DNA from: Phycisphaerae bacterium
GTDB taxonomy: Bacteria > Planctomycetota > Phycisphaerae > Phycisphaerales > UBA1924
Length of the DNA: 64,000 nucleotides
Assembly: GCA_030432255.1 (NCBI GenBank)
Contig: JAUIHS010000007.1
Span: 1-64,000, forward strand
Direction: 5' to 3'
Shown: piece after piece, positions 11,222 through 64,000 of the stretch
Layout: each line of letters opens with the position of its first letter
Numbering within the stretch: position 1 is the stretch's first letter
The notes under the pieces: model-generated
The model's database searches: none
Told to the model about the DNA's origin: nothing
What the model saw: the letters and a program-made list of their open reading frames with translations, nothing else
Position numbers and translations under genes: made by a program

Positions 11222-14185
11222 TCATGGGCAGGTCATGCCCCAGTTGGCGAGGACGATGTTGAGATCGTTGAAGTCGACCACACCGTCGCCGTTGGCATCG
11301 CCGTTGGTACCGGGCACAACGATCATGCCCCAGTTGGCGAGGACAATGTTGAGGTCGTTGAAGTCGACCGCGGCATCGCCGTTCACGTCACCCGGGCAGG
11401 GCGGCGCGGCCTGGTACTGGGCACACCAGGCGGTGATGGCGTCCACGTCATCCTCAAGCGGATCCACGAGCATCGGGAAGTTGGTCCCGTTCAGGTAGGA
11501 GCCGTAGAGCTGACGGGGATCGAGTCCGCCGGACTCATCGCCGGGGGTCAGCGGGTCATCGTCGTCGACGCTGAACACGATGCCGAATACGAAGGTGCCC
11601 GTGAAGTTCGGGTCGGGCAGCCAGGTGAACTCGAACGCATCGACGTCAGTGGACTCGAGCAGGCCGAGGTGGGCGACGTCGTCGATCACCTGAACCGGGC
11701 CGGCGGCAGTCACCAGATAGATCGAACCGGGATCGAGCGGCAAACCAAGCACCGGATCGATGGAACGACCTTCGTGGTCGGCCGTGAAGTACCAGAAGGG
11801 GCACATGTCGGGGTTCAGGACGGAGTCGAGGGAGTCGACATCGTCGTCGTCAGCCTCACTCAGATCCGGGTCGGGACGCATGTTCGGGTGGAACTGGCGC
11901 TCCGACGCAATGCCGTACTGGTTGATCACCGGGACCGGGAAGAGGCCGCCGCCACCGAGCACGAGGCCGACAACCTCATCCTGGATCGGGGTGGTGCCGT
12001 GACGGAGACCGGCGGGAGAAAGCGAGGTCACGGGGACATCGCAGCCGACCCAGCCGACGCCGCGGTCATCGTCGAAGGAGATGGCGAGGAACTCCGGAGC
12101 GAAGATGCATCCCGAGGGGAACTGCGGCGTGAAGTCCGCGGTGCCCTGCGGAACGAGGTCGGTGATATCCCGATCAAGCTGGTCGTGACCGTCCAGGTCG
12201 AAGTACTCGACGTAGTTCTGGATGGACTGACCCGGGAGGCAGATCGGTGCGACTGGCCCGAAGGGCGTGGGCGCGATGTCGGAGCCGAGGAAGATCATGG
12301 CGTCGTCCTTGAAGCCGTTGGCGGGACCTGCCAGGACACCGCCCTGGAGATACACGTCACCGGGATCAAACACTTCGTCACCGTCCATGTTGGGATCGGA
12401 AAGCTCTGAGTCGCTTCCGAGGTCCACCGAGAATTCGAAGCGCGGGTTGTCCGGGCAGGTGCAGGTGACGGTGGCACACGTGGTGCCGGCGCCCTGCGGG
12501 GTGCCGCCCGTTGCGATGCAGTCGGCCGGGGTGATGTCGGCACAGGAGCCGTCGGGATAGCAGCAGGCTTCGGTGGGCTGCGGGCAGGACGTGGTGGCAC
12601 AGTTGGTGCCGGCGCCCTGCGGAGCACCGCCGGAAGCGACGCAGTCCGCCGCCGTCAGGTCAGCACAGGAACCATCGGGGAAGCAGCAGGCTTCGGTGGG
12701 TTGCGGGCAGGACGTGGTGGCACAGTTGGTGCCGGCGCCCTGCGGAGCACCGCCGGAAGCAACGCAGTCCGCAGCGGTCAGGTCAGCACAGGAGCCGTCG
12801 GGGAAGCAGCAGGCCTCTGTGGGCTGCGGGCAGGTGGTCGTGGCACAGATGGTGCCGACGCCCTGGGGGGTTCCGCCGAAGAGCACACACGCCGCCGGGG
12901 TGATGTCGGCGCACGAACCATCGGGGAAGCAGCAGGCTTCAGTGGGCTGCGGGCAGATGGTCGTGGCACAGTTGGTGCCGGCGCCCTGAGGGGCACCACC
13001 GGCTGCCAGGCAGTCAGCCACGGTCAGGTCGGCGCATGAGCCGTCGGGGAAGCAGCACGCTTCGGTCTGGCCGAAGGGTTCGCGCCAGGCGCTGAGGGCG
13101 TCGATGTCGTCCTCGAGCGGGTCGGCGAGGGCCGCGAAGCTGAAGCCGGTCAGGTAGGAGGCGTAGATCATGCGTGGGTTGAGTCCACCGGACTCGTCAC
13201 CGAGCGTGAGCGGGTCATCGTCGTCGACGCTGTAGATGAGCGTCAGGACCTGACCGAACTGCGAGTGCTCGGTCCAGACGAACTCGAAGGCATCGATGTC
13301 GGTTTCCTCGGGGATGCCAAGGTGAGTGACCTCATCGATGATCTGAGCGAAGCCACCCGGGATGCGCTCGTAGATTCCACCCGGATCGAGCGGGCCGCCA
13401 GCGAAGGGGTCGATCGCGCGGCCTTCGTGGTCGGGTGACCACGCCCAGGTCGGGCACTGACCCGGCTCGAAGACGGCGTCGAGGGAGTCGACATCATCGT
13501 CGTCCTCGTCACCGGCATCAGGGTTGGGGGCCATTGCCGGGTGGACGCCGGCTTCGTCGAGGATCGGATACGTCGCGGCGACGCCCATCGGGAAACCGCC
13601 ACCAGCCAAGTCGATGCCGATGATCTCATCGCGAGCGGTGGTGGTGCCGTAGGAGCTGACACCGGCAGGCGACGGGGCATTGACCGGAACGTCACAAGCG
13701 ACCCAGCCGGGTCGCATGTCGTCATCAAAGGAGAGTTGGAGGAACTTCATCTCGTGAATGCAGTTCGACGGCATGATCCCGATCGGCTGCGGAAGCGGCT
13801 GATCGAGGTTGAGGAACTGAACGAGCTGGAAGTCGTACTGGTCATGGGCATCCAGGTCGAAGAACTCGACGTAGTTCTGAATGGTCTGTCCCGGCAGGCA
13901 GACGGGAGCGCCGCCGCCGAAGGGGGGATCCGGCTGGGGGTCGATGCCGAAGAGGAACTCATCATCCTTGAATCCGTCGTACGGGCCGGTTCCAACAGGG
14001 CCCGTGACATAAACGTCACCAGGATCAAAGATCTCGTCGCCATCCATGTTCGGATCCGAGAGTTCGGTATCCGACCCGATGTCGAGCGAGAACTCGAAGG
14101 TGACCTGCGCTGACGCGTGTTGGATCGGGAAGATCGTCCCGCACGCAGCAAGCGCAGCGGTGATACAGATACGCTGCATTTTCAT
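11222..14185 (-). CDS. Secreted duplicated-domain protein with five Cys-rich repeats and a dockerin-like C-terminus
   Basis: 987 residues. A signal peptide (MKMQRICITAALAACGTIF, cleavage probably after HASAQ) precedes module A (about residues 25-375), then five 41-residue EACCFPDGSC repeats, then module B (about residues 590-925), which closely repeats module A (both contain a D.GSD.ELSDPNMDGDE.FDPGDVY start, SFDDD..GWV.CDVPV and SVDDDDPLT.GDESGGL.PR). Two Asp/Asn-rich dockerin-like calcium repeats end it (GDVNGDAAVDFNDLNIVLANWG and a near copy). Such endings are common in secreted planctomycete proteins. Function unknown; no catalytic motif seen. ATG at 14185 is chosen because GGAGAG lies 5 bases upstream; a TTG at 14197 is less likely. 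Followed by an intrinsic terminator. Confidence 0.88.
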   Translation of the reverse strand: MKMQRICITAALAACGTIFPIQHASAQVTFEFSLDIGSDTELSDPNMDGDEIFDPGDVYVTGPVGTGPYDGFKDDEFLFGIDPQPDPPFGGGAPVCLPGQTIQNYVEFFDLDAHDQYDFQLVQFLNLDQPLPQPIGIMPSNCIHEMKFLQLSFDDDMRPGWVACDVPVNAPSPAGVSSYGTTTARDEIIGIDLAGGGFPMGVAATYPILDEAGVHPAMAPNPDAGDEDDDDVDSLDAVFEPGQCPTWAWSPDHEGRAIDPFAGGPLDPGGIYERIPGGFAQIIDEVTHLGIPEETDIDAFEFVWTEHSQFGQVLTLIYSVDDDDPLTLGDESGGLNPRMIYASYLTGFSFAALADPLEDDIDALSAWREPFGQTEACCFPDGSCADLTVADCLAAGGAPQGAGTNCATTICPQPTEACCFPDGSCADITPAACVLFGGTPQGVGTICATTTCPQPTEACCFPDGSCADLTAADCVASGGAPQGAGTNCATTSCPQPTEACCFPDGSCADLTAADCVASGGAPQGAGTNCATTSCPQPTEACCYPDGSCADITPADCIATGGTPQGAGTTCATVTCTCPDNPRFEFSVDLGSDSELSDPNMDGDEVFDPGDVYLQGGVLAGPANGFKDDAMIFLGSDIAPTPFGPVAPICLPGQSIQNYVEYFDLDGHDQLDRDITDLVPQGTADFTPQFPSGCIFAPEFLAISFDDDRGVGWVGCDVPVTSLSPAGLRHGTTPIQDEVVGLVLGGGGLFPVPVINQYGIASERQFHPNMRPDPDLSEADDDDVDSLDSVLNPDMCPFWYFTADHEGRSIDPVLGLPLDPGSIYLVTAAGPVQVIDDVAHLGLLESTDVDAFEFTWLPDPNFTGTFVFGIVFSVDDDDPLTPGDESGGLDPRQLYGSYLNGTNFPMLVDPLEDDVDAITAWCAQYQAAPPCPGDVNGDAAVDFNDLNIVLANWGMIVVPGTNGDANGDGVVDFNDLNIVLANWGMTCP
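12452..13066 (-). repeat. Five tandem 123-bp repeats inside the secreted protein gene
   Basis: Unit boundaries on the minus strand fall at 13066, 12943, 12820, 12697 and 12574, exactly 123 bp apart, each encoding 41 residues with six or so cysteines (TEACCFPDGSCADLT..DC, GG.PQG.GT.CAT..CPQP). Units 3 and 4 encode identical peptides and differ by a few silent changes, so they are recent copies. Units 1, 2 and 5 have diverged (for example VADCLAAGGA, PAACVLFGGT, PADCIATGGT). Confidence 0.95.
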
Positions 14186-14200
14186 GGTTCTCTCCAATTA

Positions 14201-14362: not shown

Positions 14363-16681
14363 TCATGGCGTGAGAATGAGCGTTGCGGCGACGCGGCGGG
14401 AGATCAGGGGCGTTGGACGACCGTGGATCCAGTCGGCATGGCCGGCCCGGTACCAGGGTGACAGCGGGTGTCCGGACTGGCCGGTCGGCATGTGCAGAAT
14501 CCCGTCGATTTCCCGCCCCGGACTCACGACGAGGCGCTCGCTCGCTCCGAATCCGCTTGCCTGGACCCTGACAGTCGACACGTGGCCGGGCATCGGCATG
14601 TCCGGCATGTCGAGCAACTGTCCGAGTCCCGGCATCACGCGCGAGAAAGGGTGTTGGATACCGGGTCTGTTAACGTCTCCCCAGGGGACACCGAACTCAC
14701 CGCTTGCCTGGAGCTGGGCAACCGTATCAAGGAGGATGTCCCGCAGGTAAGCGTGCCAATCGGATCCGGCCCGCGGCAGGAAGTGCTGGGGTCGCTCTTC
14801 GAGGATCCGGAGGATGCACTCATCCGCCAACGGCCAGTTGTACCGAAAGTCGGGGTCAGCCTCGAGGCATGGTGCAAGCAGCGGTGTGAGCAGGCGGGCG
14901 CGGAGTCTCGACTGGAAACGAACCAGGAGCAGGAAGGCTCGCTGGTCCACATCAGCGTGGCCGTTCCATCCCGCTGCAACTTGATGTGCGCGGGCGAGTT
15001 CAGGGACGGGGTCCTCCGGGGTCGTCAGTTTGAGGATGAGATCGCGGTAGGGGTCGAAGCGCTGCGCCCGGGTATCGAGGATCACGCTGAGGACATCAGT
15101 CTCCGTGGCGTCGCTCAATTGCTCGAGTTGCTCAATGATGCGGCGGGCCCGGTCCGGTGGCATGAAGTGATCGCTGACGATGGTGCTGCGATCGAAGGGA
15201 AGGGTGCGGTTGTTCGCCGTGAAGATGTACCCGGAAGGAGGGTCGATGATCGACGGATGCTGCTCGGAAGGGAGTGGTGATCGCCAGGAACGCGCCCCGT
15301 CGGCCCATGACGTTGCGATGCTGCCATCGAAACCCCGGCGCCGCGGGATGTAGCCGGAGATCGTCCAGCCCACGCGGCCTGTGTTGTCGGCGACCGTGAC
15401 ATTCTGGGGCGGACCGTGCCAGCGTTGTGCCGTGCTGATCGCTTCCTCAATCGTGTCGGCGACCATCATGTCCAGAATCTCGAAGTTGAATCCGCCGGGC
15501 TCGGTTGCGGACCACTTCATCACGAGTGGACGTCCGCTCGCATCATGCTCCGTAACCGGACCCCACCGTGTGGTGCGCAGAGTGAGGGTCACCGGGTCGC
15601 CGCCGCGAACGCCCAACGTATGGGTCACCTCACCGAATGGCTCGGTGCCCTCGGGAACGAGATATCGAGTCGGGTCGCTCGGATCGACGTCGACGGCGAT
15701 GAAGTCCTGTTCGTCACCGGTGACGTTCGTGAATCCCCAGGCGATCCGGGTGTTGGTTCCGACAATCATGCCCGGAGCGCCGGGAAGCGTGACGCCGCGA
15801 ACGATGTGACCGGGCCACGCGAGCGCGGCCCGGTACCAGATGTTCGGCACCGTCAGTCCGAGGTGCATGTCATTGGAGAGGATGGCACCGCCGTGTGTTG
15901 TGAGTTGCCCGGCGATGGCCAGATTGTTGGATCCGAGTGCAACGGGGTCCTCAAAGACCGGCTGATTCCAGGAGGTCGTCTCCGAGTCGCGCAGGTCCAA
16001 GACATCGGGGCCGGGCACATCGACCGGGATGTGCGTTGTCTTCAAGCCCTCCGTGAGCGTGGCATCGCTCCGGGAGGACCGCGGCGTCAGGAAGGCATAG
16101 ACATCGGGGTGGAGCGTGAGCGCCATGGTCGTGCGCTGACGCTCAAACGTCCGGCCGAAGGCGAGCATGTCGAACATCGTGAGCCCGACGAGTACCGAGT
16201 CGCGGGCGCGCCAGGGCTCGGGTTCGACGCCGAGCACGGCGTACTCGAAGGGCGGCGCTTCCAGTTCTGCAAGCCCGGCGTTGACGCCGGCGGCGTAGGC
16301 CTCCAGCAGCCTGACATGGCGATCCGGCAGGGACGGGAGCAGTTGCTCCGCTCGACGCTGGAAGTCGGAGGGGCGCTGGTTCTGATCGAGTGCGAGCACC
16401 GCGGGGCCCATGACTTCCGCAAGTCGTCCGGCGCTGTAGCGTCGCAGCAGGTCCATCTGGAAGAACCGGTCCTGGGCGTGGACAAACCCCTGCGCTCGCG
16501 CGACATCCTCAAGGGATTCGCCGCGGACAGTCGGGACGCCCTCATCGGAGCGTGAGACGACGACGGTGTGCTCAAGTCCGTGGAGGGCAATGCGACCGTT
16601 GACATCCGGCAGGTTGCCGGTGAGCGCGGTTCGCGCGACCTCGGTACCGGCGAGTGCGAGTGTCAGCATCACCTTGAGCAC
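14363..16681 (-). CDS. Penicillin acylase family (Ntn-hydrolase) protein
   Basis: 772 residues, the usual size for the penicillin amidase / acyl-homoserine lactone acylase superfamily, which self-cleaves into alpha and beta chains. Alpha-chain hallmarks: SRSDEGVPTVRGESLEDVARAQ and FVHAQDRFFQMDLLRRYSAGRLAEVMG. The beta chain should begin at Ser251 in ALGSNNLAIAG, the nucleophile of the mature enzyme, followed by LSNDMHLGL and the GFTNVTGDEQDF segment. The substrate is unknown; penicillins, lactone signals or other N-acyl compounds are all possible. A short hydrophobic N-terminus (MLKVMLTLALAG) may be a weak export signal. GTG start with AAAGGA upstream; 21 bp after the scpA reading frame, so likely co-transcribed with it. 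Confidence 0.9.
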   Translation of the reverse strand: MLKVMLTLALAGTEVARTALTGNLPDVNGRIALHGLEHTVVVSRSDEGVPTVRGESLEDVARAQGFVHAQDRFFQMDLLRRYSAGRLAEVMGPAVLALDQNQRPSDFQRRAEQLLPSLPDRHVRLLEAYAAGVNAGLAELEAPPFEYAVLGVEPEPWRARDSVLVGLTMFDMLAFGRTFERQRTTMALTLHPDVYAFLTPRSSRSDATLTEGLKTTHIPVDVPGPDVLDLRDSETTSWNQPVFEDPVALGSNNLAIAGQLTTHGGAILSNDMHLGLTVPNIWYRAALAWPGHIVRGVTLPGAPGMIVGTNTRIAWGFTNVTGDEQDFIAVDVDPSDPTRYLVPEGTEPFGEVTHTLGVRGGDPVTLTLRTTRWGPVTEHDASGRPLVMKWSATEPGGFNFEILDMMVADTIEEAISTAQRWHGPPQNVTVADNTGRVGWTISGYIPRRRGFDGSIATSWADGARSWRSPLPSEQHPSIIDPPSGYIFTANNRTLPFDRSTIVSDHFMPPDRARRIIEQLEQLSDATETDVLSVILDTRAQRFDPYRDLILKLTTPEDPVPELARAHQVAAGWNGHADVDQRAFLLLVRFQSRLRARLLTPLLAPCLEADPDFRYNWPLADECILRILEERPQHFLPRAGSDWHAYLRDILLDTVAQLQASGEFGVPWGDVNRPGIQHPFSRVMPGLGQLLDMPDMPMPGHVSTVRVQASGFGASERLVVSPGREIDGILHMPTGQSGHPLSPWYRAGHADWIHGRPTPLISRRVAATLILTP

Positions 16682-16702
16682 GGAACATCCTTTCGGTCGG
16701 GA

Positions 16703-17635
16703 TCAGCTCAACGTCCGGGAGGACTCGAACTCATCGTCATCCTCGTCTTCATCGTCGAAGATGTGATCGTCATCCCAGTTCCGCTGCTCGGCCAACGGTT
16801 CACCATCAATGGTGCCATCGGCATCGATCTCAGGGTCCGGCTCCGGGTCGGCCGGTGGAAGGAGTTCCAGGTGGATATCGGTCACACTGTCATCGGCCGA
16901 GGCTCGGACACGGCGCTGGCGGATCAGTTCGAGGACTGCCAGGAAGAGGCCGATCATCTCGGAGCGTCGGCGTCCCGAGAAGATGCTGCGCATCGAGAGC
17001 GTGGCGGTGCCTGCCCGTTCTCCCTCGCGTTCGAGTCGATCAATGACGTCTGCCTGATGAAGCTCGATCGGCGTGTCGTCGAATTGCACTTCGTGTTCGC
17101 CGAGGCGATCGAACTACACGGTCTCGACGATCCGCTGAAAGGCTTCAACGAGGTCAATGATCTCGATGTCTTCGAGCTGGAGGTCAGCGTACTCCCCGGC
17201 GAGGTCGTCGAGGCGCTCTTCGGAGATGCCGGCGCGACCATTGGGGTATCGTTGGAGCCACTCCTCGCGCCGGCCTTCGAGTGCATCCGAGGCGTCCCGG
17301 TAGTTGCGGTACTGCAGGAGGCTCTGGATGAGTTCCATGCCGGGAGAGAGTTGTGAGGTGGGAGATGCGATGTCCGCCGCATCCTCTTCAGTGTCATTGC
17401 CTTCAGGTGTGAGCATCCTGGACTTCAGTTCGACGAGCGTCGCGGCGGTGACGAGGAATTCCCCGGCAAGGTCGACGTTCACACGGTCGATGTCATCGAG
17501 GAAATCGATGTACTGATCGGCGATGCTCGCGATCGAGATCCTCGTGATGTCCACCTCCGCCTTCCGGGTGAGGTAGAGGAGCAGGTCGAGTGGACCTTCG
17601 AAGTTCTCGAGACGTACTGTGTATTCATCCTGCAT
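16703..17635 (-). pseudogene. scpA: Segregation and condensation protein A, interrupted by an in-frame TAG
   Basis: ScpA is the kleisin that bridges the SMC heads of the bacterial condensin. Starting at ATG 17635, EYTVRLENFEGPLDLLLYL and GEFLVTAATLVELKSRML are classic ScpA N-terminal motifs. The frame then meets TAG at 17114-17116 after 173 residues (FQRIVETV-stop) and continues, in the same frame, as FDRLGEHEVQFDDTPIELHQ through the C-terminal winged helix (SMRSIFSGRRRSEMIGLFLAVLELIRQRRV) for 136 more residues, ending in a very acidic tail. One base (CAG to TAG) would restore a 310-residue protein. Other genes here end in TAG, so the codon is not reassigned. It could be a real nonsense mutation, a strain variant or a sequencing error. 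No scpB is visible in the window. Confidence 0.85.
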
Positions 17636-18715: not shown

Positions 18716-21700
18716 ATGGCGATGCGACGGTTCGGTCAGATTGTTGCCGTGCTGGTGGGGGCCGGGGTCGCTGTGCTGATTCTCATCGGCATCCAGCGGA
18801 GTGGCCAGAACACAGCGCCGCCACCGACGCTGCCCGAGGACATGTCGAATTCGTTGCCGACGCCACCGGACGGTCGCGTGACGGACAGCCCGATGCAGGA
18901 CTCGGCCATTCAGCGGATTGAGAATCTGGCGCTTACGCGCGTGAACCCGGAGACGGGGCGGCTGGAGGCGCGGCTGGCGTGGGAGGCCCTGGAGCCGGAG
19001 GCGAATGGGCTGGTCTCACTGACGAAGCCGGAGGCGTGGATCTACGATCGGGCCAGCGTGCTGCATATTCGCGCCGATGCAGGTCGCCTGGTGTGGCTCT
19101 CGCGTGAAGAGGAGGAACTCCCCGAGTCCGGTGACCTGACGGGTAATGTGCGCATCCGCGTGTATGAACTCGAGCCGGAGTGGTCCGATGATCCCTCTCA
19201 GCGGCGGGACGAGTCGGGCGCGCTGATGTTGCCGCTGGTTGCATCCGTCGACACCGAGGCGTTGCACTTCGAGTCTGCCCTCGGCGAGGTGACCACCCAG
19301 GATGACCTCGTTGTGGAGGCCTCCGGTGCGACGTTTGAGGGCACGGGGCTTGTCCTCCGCATCAGCGAAGTCGCCCAGTTCTCCGGTGTGGAACGCCGCC
19401 TTCAGTACCTGCGCATTGATGAGGGCAGACGACTGATCATCCGGAATGAGGCGGAGAAGGCTTCCAGTCTCGCGGGCGCAGAATCCGGCACCTCGAAGGG
19501 CTCTACAGGGCCGAAGTCGCCGCCGGTCGTCGACAGTGAGGTGCTCTATCACATGACGGTGGACGACTCGGTGGTGCTTCAGCAGGCGGAGCGCCGCATC
19601 GAATCCGAGCACGTCGACGCCTGGGTGCGCATCGTGAATCGGCAACTGCCTGAGGACGCCATTGCCTCGTTGCCCTCCCGGCTTGATTCGAATGAGTCGG
19701 GCAGGACCGGGTCGAAGAGTGGCGATCGGCAGCAACCGGATCCGACCGCCGAAGCTGATGGTCCGGTTGAACTGCTGTGGAACGGACCGCTTGAGATTCG
19801 CACATTGCGGCAGGTGCCCGAGCAGCTCCGACTGGACGATGTTGCGGTCGCGTTCTCTTCCCCTCGCGCCAACGAAGTGCGCTTTGCGGATGCAGGGATG
19901 TCGCTGAACGGGCGTGTCGTATCGATGTCGTACGGTTTGACATCCCAGCGTCTCGCACTGCTGGGGGTCGGCGGACGCGGCGTCGAGTTGAATGTGCCGG
20001 ATGGGACACTGCTCACCGGACGCGTCGATGTGGATCTCGCGCAGGGATTGGGCTCATTCACCGGGCCGGGTGAGTTGCGGTCGAGCGAGATGACCGTGCC
20101 GGCCGCGGGCCAGATACTCCAGCGGGCGCGGCCTCGACAGTCGGCGGTGTGGTCGGACGGCGCGGAGTTTTCGTTCGGATTTGACGAGGTTTCGGGCGAC
20201 CTGGTTCCGACAGATGCGCGGCTGAACGGTGCGGTTGAGTTGCGCGATGCGGACCGGCTGATGTCCGGTAACGCGGTGTTTGCGACCTTCCAGCGCGTGG
20301 ATGGTGATGAACCGTGGGTTGCACTAACGGGGGTTGAAGTCGACGGTGAAGCGCTGGTCGCATCGGGTGATCGTGATGGTGTGCGGGCGAGTCGGATTGA
20401 TGCAGCGTTCGAGATTCCGACTGAGGCGGGCCGGTTGGGCAACATGCGGGCCCTCGCTGAAGGTGATGTGCGAGCCCGTTCCGGCGACCAGGAGATCCTG
20501 GCGGAGATCGTTGAAGTGGATGCGGAGTCGATGGACGATGGCAGCATGGCTCCACGACGGGTTCAGGCCCGCCACTCCGTGCGCGTTGCGATGCGCCCCG
20601 AGGCGGACCCGGACGCGTCTCGCGAAGAACTGGTGGTCGATGCGGATCAACTCGATGCGACGTTCGGTGATCCGGTCGACGGAGAACGCGGCCCGGCGAT
20701 GATTGACATTCAAGGGGCTCCTGCGACGCTGACGCGCCGGCGCGAGGGGGAACAGGGGGTTCTCGAGGCGCGGTCGCTCCGCATTGATGAGGCGGCGGAG
20801 CGCGTGACGGTCTTCGGAGAGGGACGTGCCGATCAGACACTGGCTCGCGGCACCACCAACTACGACGCCCTCGGTGTGCAGTGGACGGACGGTCTGGTGT
20901 ACGAGGGCGATGACGTCACTGGCCAGGTGGAAGTCATGGGCGACATCGTGGGACGTGGCGAACTGGATGACGTCCAGCGTCATCTCGTGCAGGGCGAGCG
21001 ACTCGTGCTCCATTTCAATCGCTCAACGGACAGTGCGTCCGATGAGCAGGGCACGTGGCGCCTGTCGGGTGCGACCATTGAGGGAGATCCGCTCGCGGAG
21101 GGCGAGGATCGGCTGGCCCAGGTGGAATCCCGCCGCTACTTCCCGGCGACCGACGGGGCGCCGATGACAACCCTCGAGGGACTCGGCATGCTCGCGGGTC
21201 CGGAGATCCACGCCACGAACATCGAGGACGTCGAGACGGGGCAGGTTGATGTGCCCGGGGCCGGCATCCTGATGATCGAGGATCGACGCCATCGGGAGGC
21301 CAACGCCGAGCCGCGCGAGGTCTTCACGGAAGATGAGAGCATCTTCGGCGAGTCGTTCCGCGATCTTCGCGGCACGACCGTCTTTGACTGGACCGGCAGC
21401 TTTCATCTGACGGGCGAGACCGGAGAGATGGAGATGCGTCGGCAGGTGCGCCTGCGCCATCGCCACCCGGACGCCCAGGCATTCATGGAACTGGAATGCG
21501 AGCACCTGAAGGCGTGGGCGGAGCGCCGCACCGACGAGTCCGGGCGCCCGATTGAGCCGGAGCTGACCCGCGTCATTGCGGAGGATGGCGTGTTCGCGCG
21601 TCACGGCCACGTGGAACTGGTCTGCGATCGGCTTGAGTATGACACCTCGACGGCGGAGGTGGTGGCGACGGCCTCTCCCGGGAGCACCGTCACCCTCTTC

Positions 21701-21805
21701 GATGCCGATCGTGGCGTGCACTACCGGAGTGAGTCGGTCACCCTCGATGTCCGGACGGGCGAGTGGAAGAGCAGCGGGGCGGAGACGGTGCGATTCCCAG
21801 GTTAG
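18716..21805 (+). CDS. Giant LptC/LptA (OstA)-like periplasmic protein
   Basis: 1029 residues. One membrane helix near residues 9-27 anchors a long all-beta region with no cysteines of note. The segment from about residue 60 (IENLALTRVNPETGRLEARL, then KPEAWIYDRASVLHIRADAGRLVWL) resembles LptC, and later blocks with repeating VRVRSGDQEILAEI, LVVDADQLDATF and VELVCDRLEYDTSTAEVVAT patterns resemble LptA/OstA beta-jellyroll repeats. LptC and LptA (about 190 residues each) carry LPS from the inner membrane to LptD; here one chain could replace several. Its position 12 bp after kdsD supports an LPS role. Family call is from pattern only; length is far beyond the usual. Ends in TAG. Confidence 0.7.
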   Translation: MAMRRFGQIVAVLVGAGVAVLILIGIQRSGQNTAPPPTLPEDMSNSLPTPPDGRVTDSPMQDSAIQRIENLALTRVNPETGRLEARLAWEALEPEANGLVSLTKPEAWIYDRASVLHIRADAGRLVWLSREEEELPESGDLTGNVRIRVYELEPEWSDDPSQRRDESGALMLPLVASVDTEALHFESALGEVTTQDDLVVEASGATFEGTGLVLRISEVAQFSGVERRLQYLRIDEGRRLIIRNEAEKASSLAGAESGTSKGSTGPKSPPVVDSEVLYHMTVDDSVVLQQAERRIESEHVDAWVRIVNRQLPEDAIASLPSRLDSNESGRTGSKSGDRQQPDPTAEADGPVELLWNGPLEIRTLRQVPEQLRLDDVAVAFSSPRANEVRFADAGMSLNGRVVSMSYGLTSQRLALLGVGGRGVELNVPDGTLLTGRVDVDLAQGLGSFTGPGELRSSEMTVPAAGQILQRARPRQSAVWSDGAEFSFGFDEVSGDLVPTDARLNGAVELRDADRLMSGNAVFATFQRVDGDEPWVALTGVEVDGEALVASGDRDGVRASRIDAAFEIPTEAGRLGNMRALAEGDVRARSGDQEILAEIVEVDAESMDDGSMAPRRVQARHSVRVAMRPEADPDASREELVVDADQLDATFGDPVDGERGPAMIDIQGAPATLTRRREGEQGVLEARSLRIDEAAERVTVFGEGRADQTLARGTTNYDALGVQWTDGLVYEGDDVTGQVEVMGDIVGRGELDDVQRHLVQGERLVLHFNRSTDSASDEQGTWRLSGATIEGDPLAEGEDRLAQVESRRYFPATDGAPMTTLEGLGMLAGPEIHATNIEDVETGQVDVPGAGILMIEDRRHREANAEPREVFTEDESIFGESFRDLRGTTVFDWTGSFHLTGETGEMEMRRQVRLRHRHPDAQAFMELECEHLKAWAERRTDESGRPIEPELTRVIAEDGVFARHGHVELVCDRLEYDTSTAEVVATASPGSTVTLFDADRGVHYRSESVTLDVRTGEWKSSGAETVRFPG

Positions 21806-46360: not shown

Positions 46361-46402
46361 GTGGCTGTGGACGTGCAGCGGTACGGTGCGTACAACTCCC
46401 GC

Positions 46403-47044
46403 ATGAAGATACGTCACATGATCGTTGCGATCGGCTGCTCATCCGTGTTTGCAGCGCTGCTCGCTGGTTGCACGCCTCAATCTGAATCGGACTCGAGCGA
46501 GCCCGTCGAGACGACCACGGCGGAAGAAGCCTCGGATACCGGTGATCGTCCGTCGAACCTGCTGGACTTCACGATGAAGACGATCGATGGAGAGGATCAG
46601 TCACTGGGTGTCTATCAGGGCGACGTCATTCTCGTGGTCAACGTCGCGAGTCGCTGCGGCCTGACCCCGCAGTACCAGGCGCTCGAGGCGCTGTACCGCG
46701 AGCATCAGGATGCCGGGTTCACGGTACTTGCCTTTCCCGCCAACGACTTCAACGGGCAGGAGCCCGGAAGCAACGAGGAGATTCGCGAATTCTGCACGTC
46801 GAAGTACCAGGTGACGTTCCCGATGTTCGCCAAGATCAGCGTCCTGGGCGATGACCAGGATCCACTCTACGCGTGGCTGTCGACGCAGCCGGATCCGATC
46901 GGCGGAGAGCCGCGATGGAACTTCACGAAGTTCCTGGTGAATCGAGAAGGGGAAGTGGTTCAGAGATTCGAGCCGCGTACCGCACCGGATGATCCCGCCG
47001 TCGTCGAGGCGGTCAACCGTCTCTTGGAAGCACCCCGGAGTTAG
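46403..47044 (+). CDS. Glutathione-peroxidase-family lipoprotein
   Basis: 213 residues. Lipoprotein signal with lipobox LLAGC (Cys about residue 23), then an acidic linker, then a thioredoxin-fold GPx domain: VNVASRCGLTPQYQALE (redox Cys encoded by TGC, so not a selenoprotein), FPANDFNGQEPGSNEEI and PRWNFTKFLVNREG (Gln and Trp of the tetrad). It reduces peroxides, probably with thioredoxin rather than glutathione, and here faces the periplasm. It starts 42 bp after the kinase stop and could be an effector of that operon. Its TAG stop shares bases with the lpxK stop (TTAG at 47041-47044). Confidence 0.88.
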   Translation: MKIRHMIVAIGCSSVFAALLAGCTPQSESDSSEPVETTTAEEASDTGDRPSNLLDFTMKTIDGEDQSLGVYQGDVILVVNVASRCGLTPQYQALEALYREHQDAGFTVLAFPANDFNGQEPGSNEEIREFCTSKYQVTFPMFAKISVLGDDQDPLYAWLSTQPDPIGGEPRWNFTKFLVNREGEVVQRFEPRTAPDDPAVVEAVNRLLEAPRS

Positions 47045-62985: not shown

Positions 62986-64000
62986 CTACTCGTTCCACTC
63001 CTCAGTCAGTCGTACGATCAAGCAGGCCATGAGCTGGGCACGCTCCACCAGGCTCGCGAGTTCGATCCACTCGTCCGTTGTATGCAGCCCGCCGCCGCGG
63101 ACGCCGAGTGTATCGATCACAGGGAGTCCGGCGGCCTGCAGGATGTTGCCGTCGCAGACGCCGCCGGTCTTCTCGAAGGGAAGCGACTGTCCCAGCGCTT
63201 CGGCGGCACCCTTCGCCATTGATGCGAGGCGCTCGACCGCCGGAGTCGTCGGCTTGGCCGGACGATTGAAGGTGCGCTCCACGACGATTCGCGGCAGTTC
63301 GTCTCCCTGTGTGGCGAGTGCATCCATGGCCTTGCCAAGTTCATCGGCGGTTTGTTCGTCGGGAAATCGCACGTTCCCCCATGCCGCGGCGTGATCGGGC
63401 ACAACATTGGTGGCTCCTCCCCCGGATATCGGACCGACGTTGACGACGATGCCCCTCTCGGCATCCGAGAGGTGTGAGAGTTTCACCAGGACTTCCGCGA
63501 GCGCGTACACGGCGGAGACACCATCGGTGAACGCGCGCCCGGCGTGAGCGGAGCGCCCGTGTGCTTCGATCATGAACTGACCTGCACCGCGTCGCTGGAT
63601 CGCGAGCGCCCCACCGGGCAGGCAGGGTTCGGTCACGAGGCCGACGTCCGCGACTCGGGCTTCCGCTGCGAGTGTTCCTGCCGAGGCAAACGAGCCGGTC
63701 TCTTCATCTGAGTTCAGGACGAAGGTCCACGAGGCTTCGAAGCCGACGGCGTGCAGCGCTTCGAGCGCGGTGACCGCGATCAGCACCCCACCTTTCATAT
63801 CTACGACCCCGGGCCCCACAGCGACATCGCCATCAGGGGAGATGATCATCTCCGTGAAGTCGCCCTGCGGCTCGAAGACGGTATCGAGGTGCCCGACGAG
63901 GAGGATCCGGGGCTTGCCATGGACCGGCCTCCGGCAGATGACGGTGGGGGGGATCTCATCCGGGTGCTTCGGTCCCGGGAGCCAGTCCGGTCTTGTCTCA
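62986..64000 (-). CDS. M20-family peptidase/deacylase (5' partial, runs off the right edge)
   Basis: About 337 codons are visible; the frame stays open to the window edge, and the start lies outside. Zinc ligand motifs: LLVGHLDTVFEP (His), GPGVVDMKGGVLIAV (Asp), NSDEETGSFASAG (two Glu) and TEPCLPGG. The following dimerisation lobe contains GRSAHAGRAFTDGVSA and the C-terminal half ends in GVRGGGLHTTDEWIELASLVERAQ, with the last His ligand. It resembles carboxypeptidase G2 and ArgE/DapE-type deacylases. In this operon it might take the AstE role of removing succinate from succinylglutamate; inference only. Ends in TAG. Confidence 0.87.
   Translation of the reverse strand, partial: ETRPDWLPGPKHPDEIPPTVICRRPVHGKPRILLVGHLDTVFEPQGDFTEMIISPDGDVAVGPGVVDMKGGVLIAVTALEALHAVGFEASWTFVLNSDEETGSFASAGTLAAEARVADVGLVTEPCLPGGALAIQRRGAGQFMIEAHGRSAHAGRAFTDGVSAVYALAEVLVKLSHLSDAERGIVVNVGPISGGGATNVVPDHAAAWGNVRFPDEQTADELGKAMDALATQGDELPRIVVERTFNRPAKPTTPAVERLASMAKGAAEALGQSLPFEKTGGVCDGNILQAAGLPVIDTLGVRGGGLHTTDEWIELASLVERAQLMACLIVRLTEEWNE

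Follow-up and report, generated by a model that had tools for sequence, protein, structure and literature searches.

ScpA (PF02616) is the kleisin of the bacterial SMC-ScpAB condensin, in which one continuous polypeptide bridges two SMC heads. The consequences of interrupting this polypeptide have been described for Bacillus subtilis, where TEV cleavage of ScpA in the linker that precedes the C-terminal winged helix causes the ring to open and DNA entrapment to be lost (PMC4442127). Inactivation of B. subtilis Smc-ScpAB is lethal under nutrient-rich conditions, and SMC mutants of this species have been grown in minimal medium (PMC4442127). A different kind of comparison is offered by single-substitution pseudogenes and by the in-frame stops of draft genomes, which are a source of false inferences about the genetic code (PMC8629427). 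Here we describe a 64,000-nucleotide stretch of a Phycisphaerae draft genome (the window), in which the scpA frame contains a single TAG in the same linker that was cleaved in B. subtilis. We assign a probability of roughly 0.92 to the reading that the TAG is a premature and isolated amber codon of a single draft genome, at which translation terminates in the ordinary way, and that it came about by error or by recent mutation.

The scpA frame and its in-frame TAG

The scpA reading frame is located on the minus strand, from an ATG at 17635 to a terminal TGA at 16705-16703, and consists of 310 codons plus the TGA, with one TAG inside. The latter is codon 174, at 17116-17114 (CTA on the plus strand). 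The first-pass annotation, which gave no strand, had described the frame as open on both sides of the TAG and free of any shift. This is indeed the case: ScpA sequence flanks the stop on either side without a frameshift, and the PF02616 match is continuous across it. The read-through product is recognised as one ScpA (E = 2.8e-27, profile positions 4-227 of 232), with the N-terminal, middle and C-terminal parts of the profile all matched. The best named match is the ScpA of a Phycisphaerales MAG (class Phycisphaerae), with 48% identity. An antisense ORF over scpA (16568-17356, plus strand) was taken to be a shadow ORF.

If the TAG terminates, the predicted product (17117-17635, minus strand) would be 173 residues long, a count that the first-pass annotation had right, and would consist of the N-terminal SMC-neck-binding and ScpB-binding parts. 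This portion covers PF02616 positions 4-141 (E = 4e-19) and matches the solved ScpA chains 3w6j, 3zgx and 4i98, which we take to represent the SMC-neck-binding and ScpB-binding regions of ScpA. The portion after the stop (16703-17113, minus strand) comprises the C-terminal winged helix and an acidic tail, and gives weak matches (E 0.05-0.07) to the ScpA chains 5xg3_C and 5h66_C, presumably corresponding to the SMC-head-binding winged helix at the C-terminus. As the first set of chains covers the N-terminal regions and the second the winged helix, the TAG (17114-17116, minus strand) is placed in the linker that leads up to the latter. With the TAG ahead of the winged helix and a standard code, the frame does not provide one continuous polypeptide bridging two SMC heads. 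Should the base be real, a 173-residue ScpA would be made that would retain its binding to the SMC neck and to ScpB. It would be unable to bind the other SMC head, and the truncated protein is expected to fail to close the SMC-ScpA ring in this organism.

The partners SMC and ScpB, which the earlier annotation had suggested looking for elsewhere in the genome, are both encoded and intact. The smc gene (C118:177871-181569) has a 1311-aa frame without stops inside and is found on the same contig as scpA, while scpB (C12:446752-447258) is likewise free of inside stops.

The ScpA sequence after the stop is undecayed. When columns with at least 85% of one residue in relatives are considered, 21/22 are kept after the stop and 43/50 before it, and the identity of the post-stop part to relatives is not reduced. 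The lack of decay after the stop leaves two possibilities, an error or a very recent origin. For the coding status of the post-stop part we relied on homology, because antisense ORFs score similarly in codon usage; a codon-usage scan as proof of coding was dropped, as such ORFs score alike at 62-63% G+C. The acidic tail of ScpA (WDDDHIFDDEDEDDD) recurs as WEDDHILDDEDEDDD in the relative L005. An acidic C-terminal motif, W(D/E)DDHI(F/L)DDEDEDDD (window 16703-16800, minus strand), is common to the ScpA described here and that of L005, and is absent from the other aligned relatives.

Two further genes of the window deserve a brief description. At 18716-21805 (plus strand), a 1029-aa LptC-like protein without a Pfam match is encoded by a gene that adjoins that of a SIS-CBS (KdsD-like) isomerase, the latter being divergent from scpA. 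At 11222-14197 (minus strand), a secreted-looking protein of 991 aa contains about 5 tandem Cys-rich repeats of 123 bp (41 aa; ACCFPDGSCAD...) at 12470-13066 and closes with a dockerin-like GDVNGDAAVDFNDLN motif. The end of a similar protein was noted at C118:69219.

Reading of UAG in this genome

Stop codon use was scanned in 457 kb, made up of the complete contig C118 and 260 kb of C12 (about 10% of the genome). The 301 gene-like ORFs selected in this sequence end in TGA (245), TAG (37) or TAA (19), so that TAG ends about one in eight, with the proviso that codon use does not select ORFs perfectly at 62-63% G+C. Within the window, TAG is indeed the terminator of the three genes for which the first-pass annotation had claimed it, namely the LptC-like giant, with its end at 21805, the glutathione peroxidase at 46400-47044 and the M20 peptidase at 62986-63999. 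The scan sought stops followed in the same frame by a seemingly coding open stretch without an early ATG, and is blind to frameshifts. Besides scpA it returned 12 candidates, all of which proved to be normal gene ends: the 9 that were Pfam-scanned each mark the boundary between two different genes (e.g. nuoB/nuoA, rpsB/tsf), and 3 were judged by eye. The scpA stop is the only domain-splitting stop found by this same-frame scan in the 457 kb. The pattern of UAG reassignment, with TAG often inside conserved genes and rare as a terminator, was not seen in this sequence.

RF1 (on C119) is open, hence loss or change of this release factor was not found. It contains GGQ and the sequence VPATETQGR with its PAT motif, the known RF1 motif reading UAG/UAA. 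Its score of 351.8 is below the TIGR00019 cut-off of 423.25, with the tripeptide motif present. One TAA reported inside RF1 is merely its own terminal stop. RF2 is also open. A UAG-reading tRNA, which the first-pass annotation had proposed to look for, did not emerge: neither a CTA nor a TTA anticodon occurs among the 44 tRNA genes found in the genome, which is 94% complete. The same set of genes does not include a tRNA-His, which places a few tRNA genes in the missing part of the genome, where a suppressor tRNA might conceivably be located as well. Searches for pyrrolysyl-tRNA synthetase gave weak synthetase cross-matches only, far below the cut-off, and no CTA anticodon was found, i.e. the PylS and tRNA-Pyl pair for pyrrolysine insertion was not detected. 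The RNA fold around the scpA stop is slightly better than that of shuffled sequences and unremarkable (z = -1.2). Given open RF1 and RF2, no CTA or TTA tRNA, PylS matches below the cut-off and this fold, the TAG most likely terminates translation in scpA. In the cell, translation would end there through RF1 in the ordinary way. The earlier claim of a standard code thus agrees with the use of TAG as terminator, the intact release factors and the tRNA complement found.

In the same genome, the 3' half of tRNA-Lys(CTT) and a short stretch beyond it are repeated (C32:22104-22172, L085, and C32:34734-34806, L052). The repeated copy and the intact tRNA gene share one orientation and are separated by about 12.6 kb, resembling the attL/attR of an integrated mobile element.

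The TAG site among relatives

At the search sensitivity used, ScpA was detected in 75 of the 80 other family and order genomes, with 3 of the 75 matching in the N-terminal part only. None of the 75 has a stop inside the ScpA match, nor did the control protein ScpB show an inside stop in any relative where it was found. A TAG conserved across relatives, which according to the first-pass annotation would point to recoding, is therefore not seen (0/75), and neither is the conservation of the stop at one site that would accompany programmed readthrough.

A class-wide sample contains ScpA in 374/397 genomes, and among the best-scoring class-wide matches listed, the ScpA of one genome (G108) has an in-frame TAG (L110:2020-2022, on G108:C271). 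It is also situated in the linker, at a position other than that of the TAG studied here: it lies upstream of a 'VEIWDL' segment, and the equivalent of 17116-17114 follows roughly 40 codons later. On other contigs, G108 furthermore carries pieces of a second and divergent scpA, which lie at the contig ends (L112, L113). The different linker position together with these second scpA fragments indicates an independent event, and the conserved readthrough site that the G108 TAG might suggest was rejected on these grounds.

In 31 relatives, the residue aligned to the TAG is D (11), N (10), G (5), A (2), Q (1), I (1) or R (1), and as judged from these sequences the site is a variable linker position. 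The relatives' codons are mostly AAC, GAC and GAT, each two changes from TAG, and CAG occurs once. This does not bear out the ancestral glutamine that had been assumed in explaining the stop by a CAG to TAG change, as most relatives have D or N at the site. The variability of the linker position makes such a step possible, without demonstrating it. Searching the literature for scpA genes with truncations or nonsense mutations yielded nothing useful.

Origin of the stop and comparison with known systems

The first-pass annotation had listed a real mutation, a read error and programmed readthrough as options. The first two stand and together make up our preferred reading, while the third finds no support in the relatives, RF1 and RF2, the tRNAs, terminator use or RNA structure. 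The split between error and mutation, about 55%/45%, is a judgement and not a measurement. Roughly even odds are given to a consensus or strain-mixture error, whereby the organism's own allele would be a sense codon and the TAG would be present in the assembled sequence only. Consistent with this, the draft genome consists of 122 contigs, none of the relatives sampled shares the stop, everything downstream of it is undecayed, and smc and scpB are intact. However, the same-frame scan of about 10% of the genome revealed no other domain-splitting stop, suggesting that the consensus is not generally bad.

A real and recent nonsense mutation is somewhat less probable, at a little short of an even chance. 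In that case the truncated ScpA would leave the lineage living with an open or absent SMC ring. In favour of a mutation, loss of SMC-ScpAB is lethal to B. subtilis in rich conditions, while its SMC mutants are grown in minimal medium (PMC4442127). The TAG site is moreover not conserved in relatives, and G108 provides another ScpA of the class with an in-frame TAG. Against a mutation, the sequence after the stop has not decayed and nearly all relatives keep scpA. The occurrence of the G108 TAG in the same linker region, at a different position, could hint that the linker tolerates breaks, which counts against our preferred explanation. If the stop is real and fixed, this lineage would constitute a natural test of whether the bacterial condensin ring needs covalent closure by the kleisin.

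It is far less probable that the TAG is real and fixed in a lineage whose kleisin is naturally split or truncated at its C-terminus, with the winged helix either supplied from a restart or dispensed with. A possible restart ORF of 128 aa (16703-17089, minus strand) begins with a GTG at 17089, 8 codons past the stop, whereas the first ATG after the TAG is 40 codons downstream. The ORF contains nearly all of the ScpA C-terminal part and matches PF02616 positions 187-227, albeit weakly (E = 0.0093). A functional split kleisin, with the C-terminal winged helix made separately from this GTG, is equally improbable: the GTG lacks a clear Shine-Dalgarno sequence, the same kind of split is seen in 0/75 of the ScpA-bearing genomes from the family and order, and in B. 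subtilis an uncut ScpA linker is required for DNA to be entrapped (PMC4442127). Recoding or programmed readthrough, by which UAG would be read as an amino acid and with which a frame open and still conserved on both sides of the TAG would agree, is the least probable of all and was rejected, as RF1 is intact, a UAG-reading tRNA and PylS above the cut-off were not found, TAG serves as a terminator in this genome, the scpA stop is not conserved in relatives, and the fold around the stop reaches just z = -1.2.

Our preferred reading, an isolated premature amber codon, makes the scpA stop an everyday kind of event, and a reminder that recoding cannot be deduced from one in-frame stop in a draft genome. 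Compared with the ScpA kleisins of bacterial SMC-ScpAB condensin, the two halves correspond to the family in the right order and without a shift of frame, and smc and scpB are present elsewhere in the genome, with smc on the same contig; unlike these kleisins, the frame studied here is interrupted by a TAG in the linker ahead of the winged helix and has a long acidic tail, shared in part with L005. The TEV-cleavable ScpA of B. subtilis also has its break in the linker preceding the C-terminal winged helix (PMC4442127), but there the break was engineered into the protein, whereas here it is a stop codon, and no synthesis of the C-terminal part is expected. With single-substitution pseudogenes and the in-frame stops of draft genomes, the locus shares one isolated stop, the lack of a suppressor tRNA, intact release factors and the lack of conservation. 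It differs from such pseudogenes in that scpA is a usually retained chromosome-segregation gene, which here carries no other lesion.
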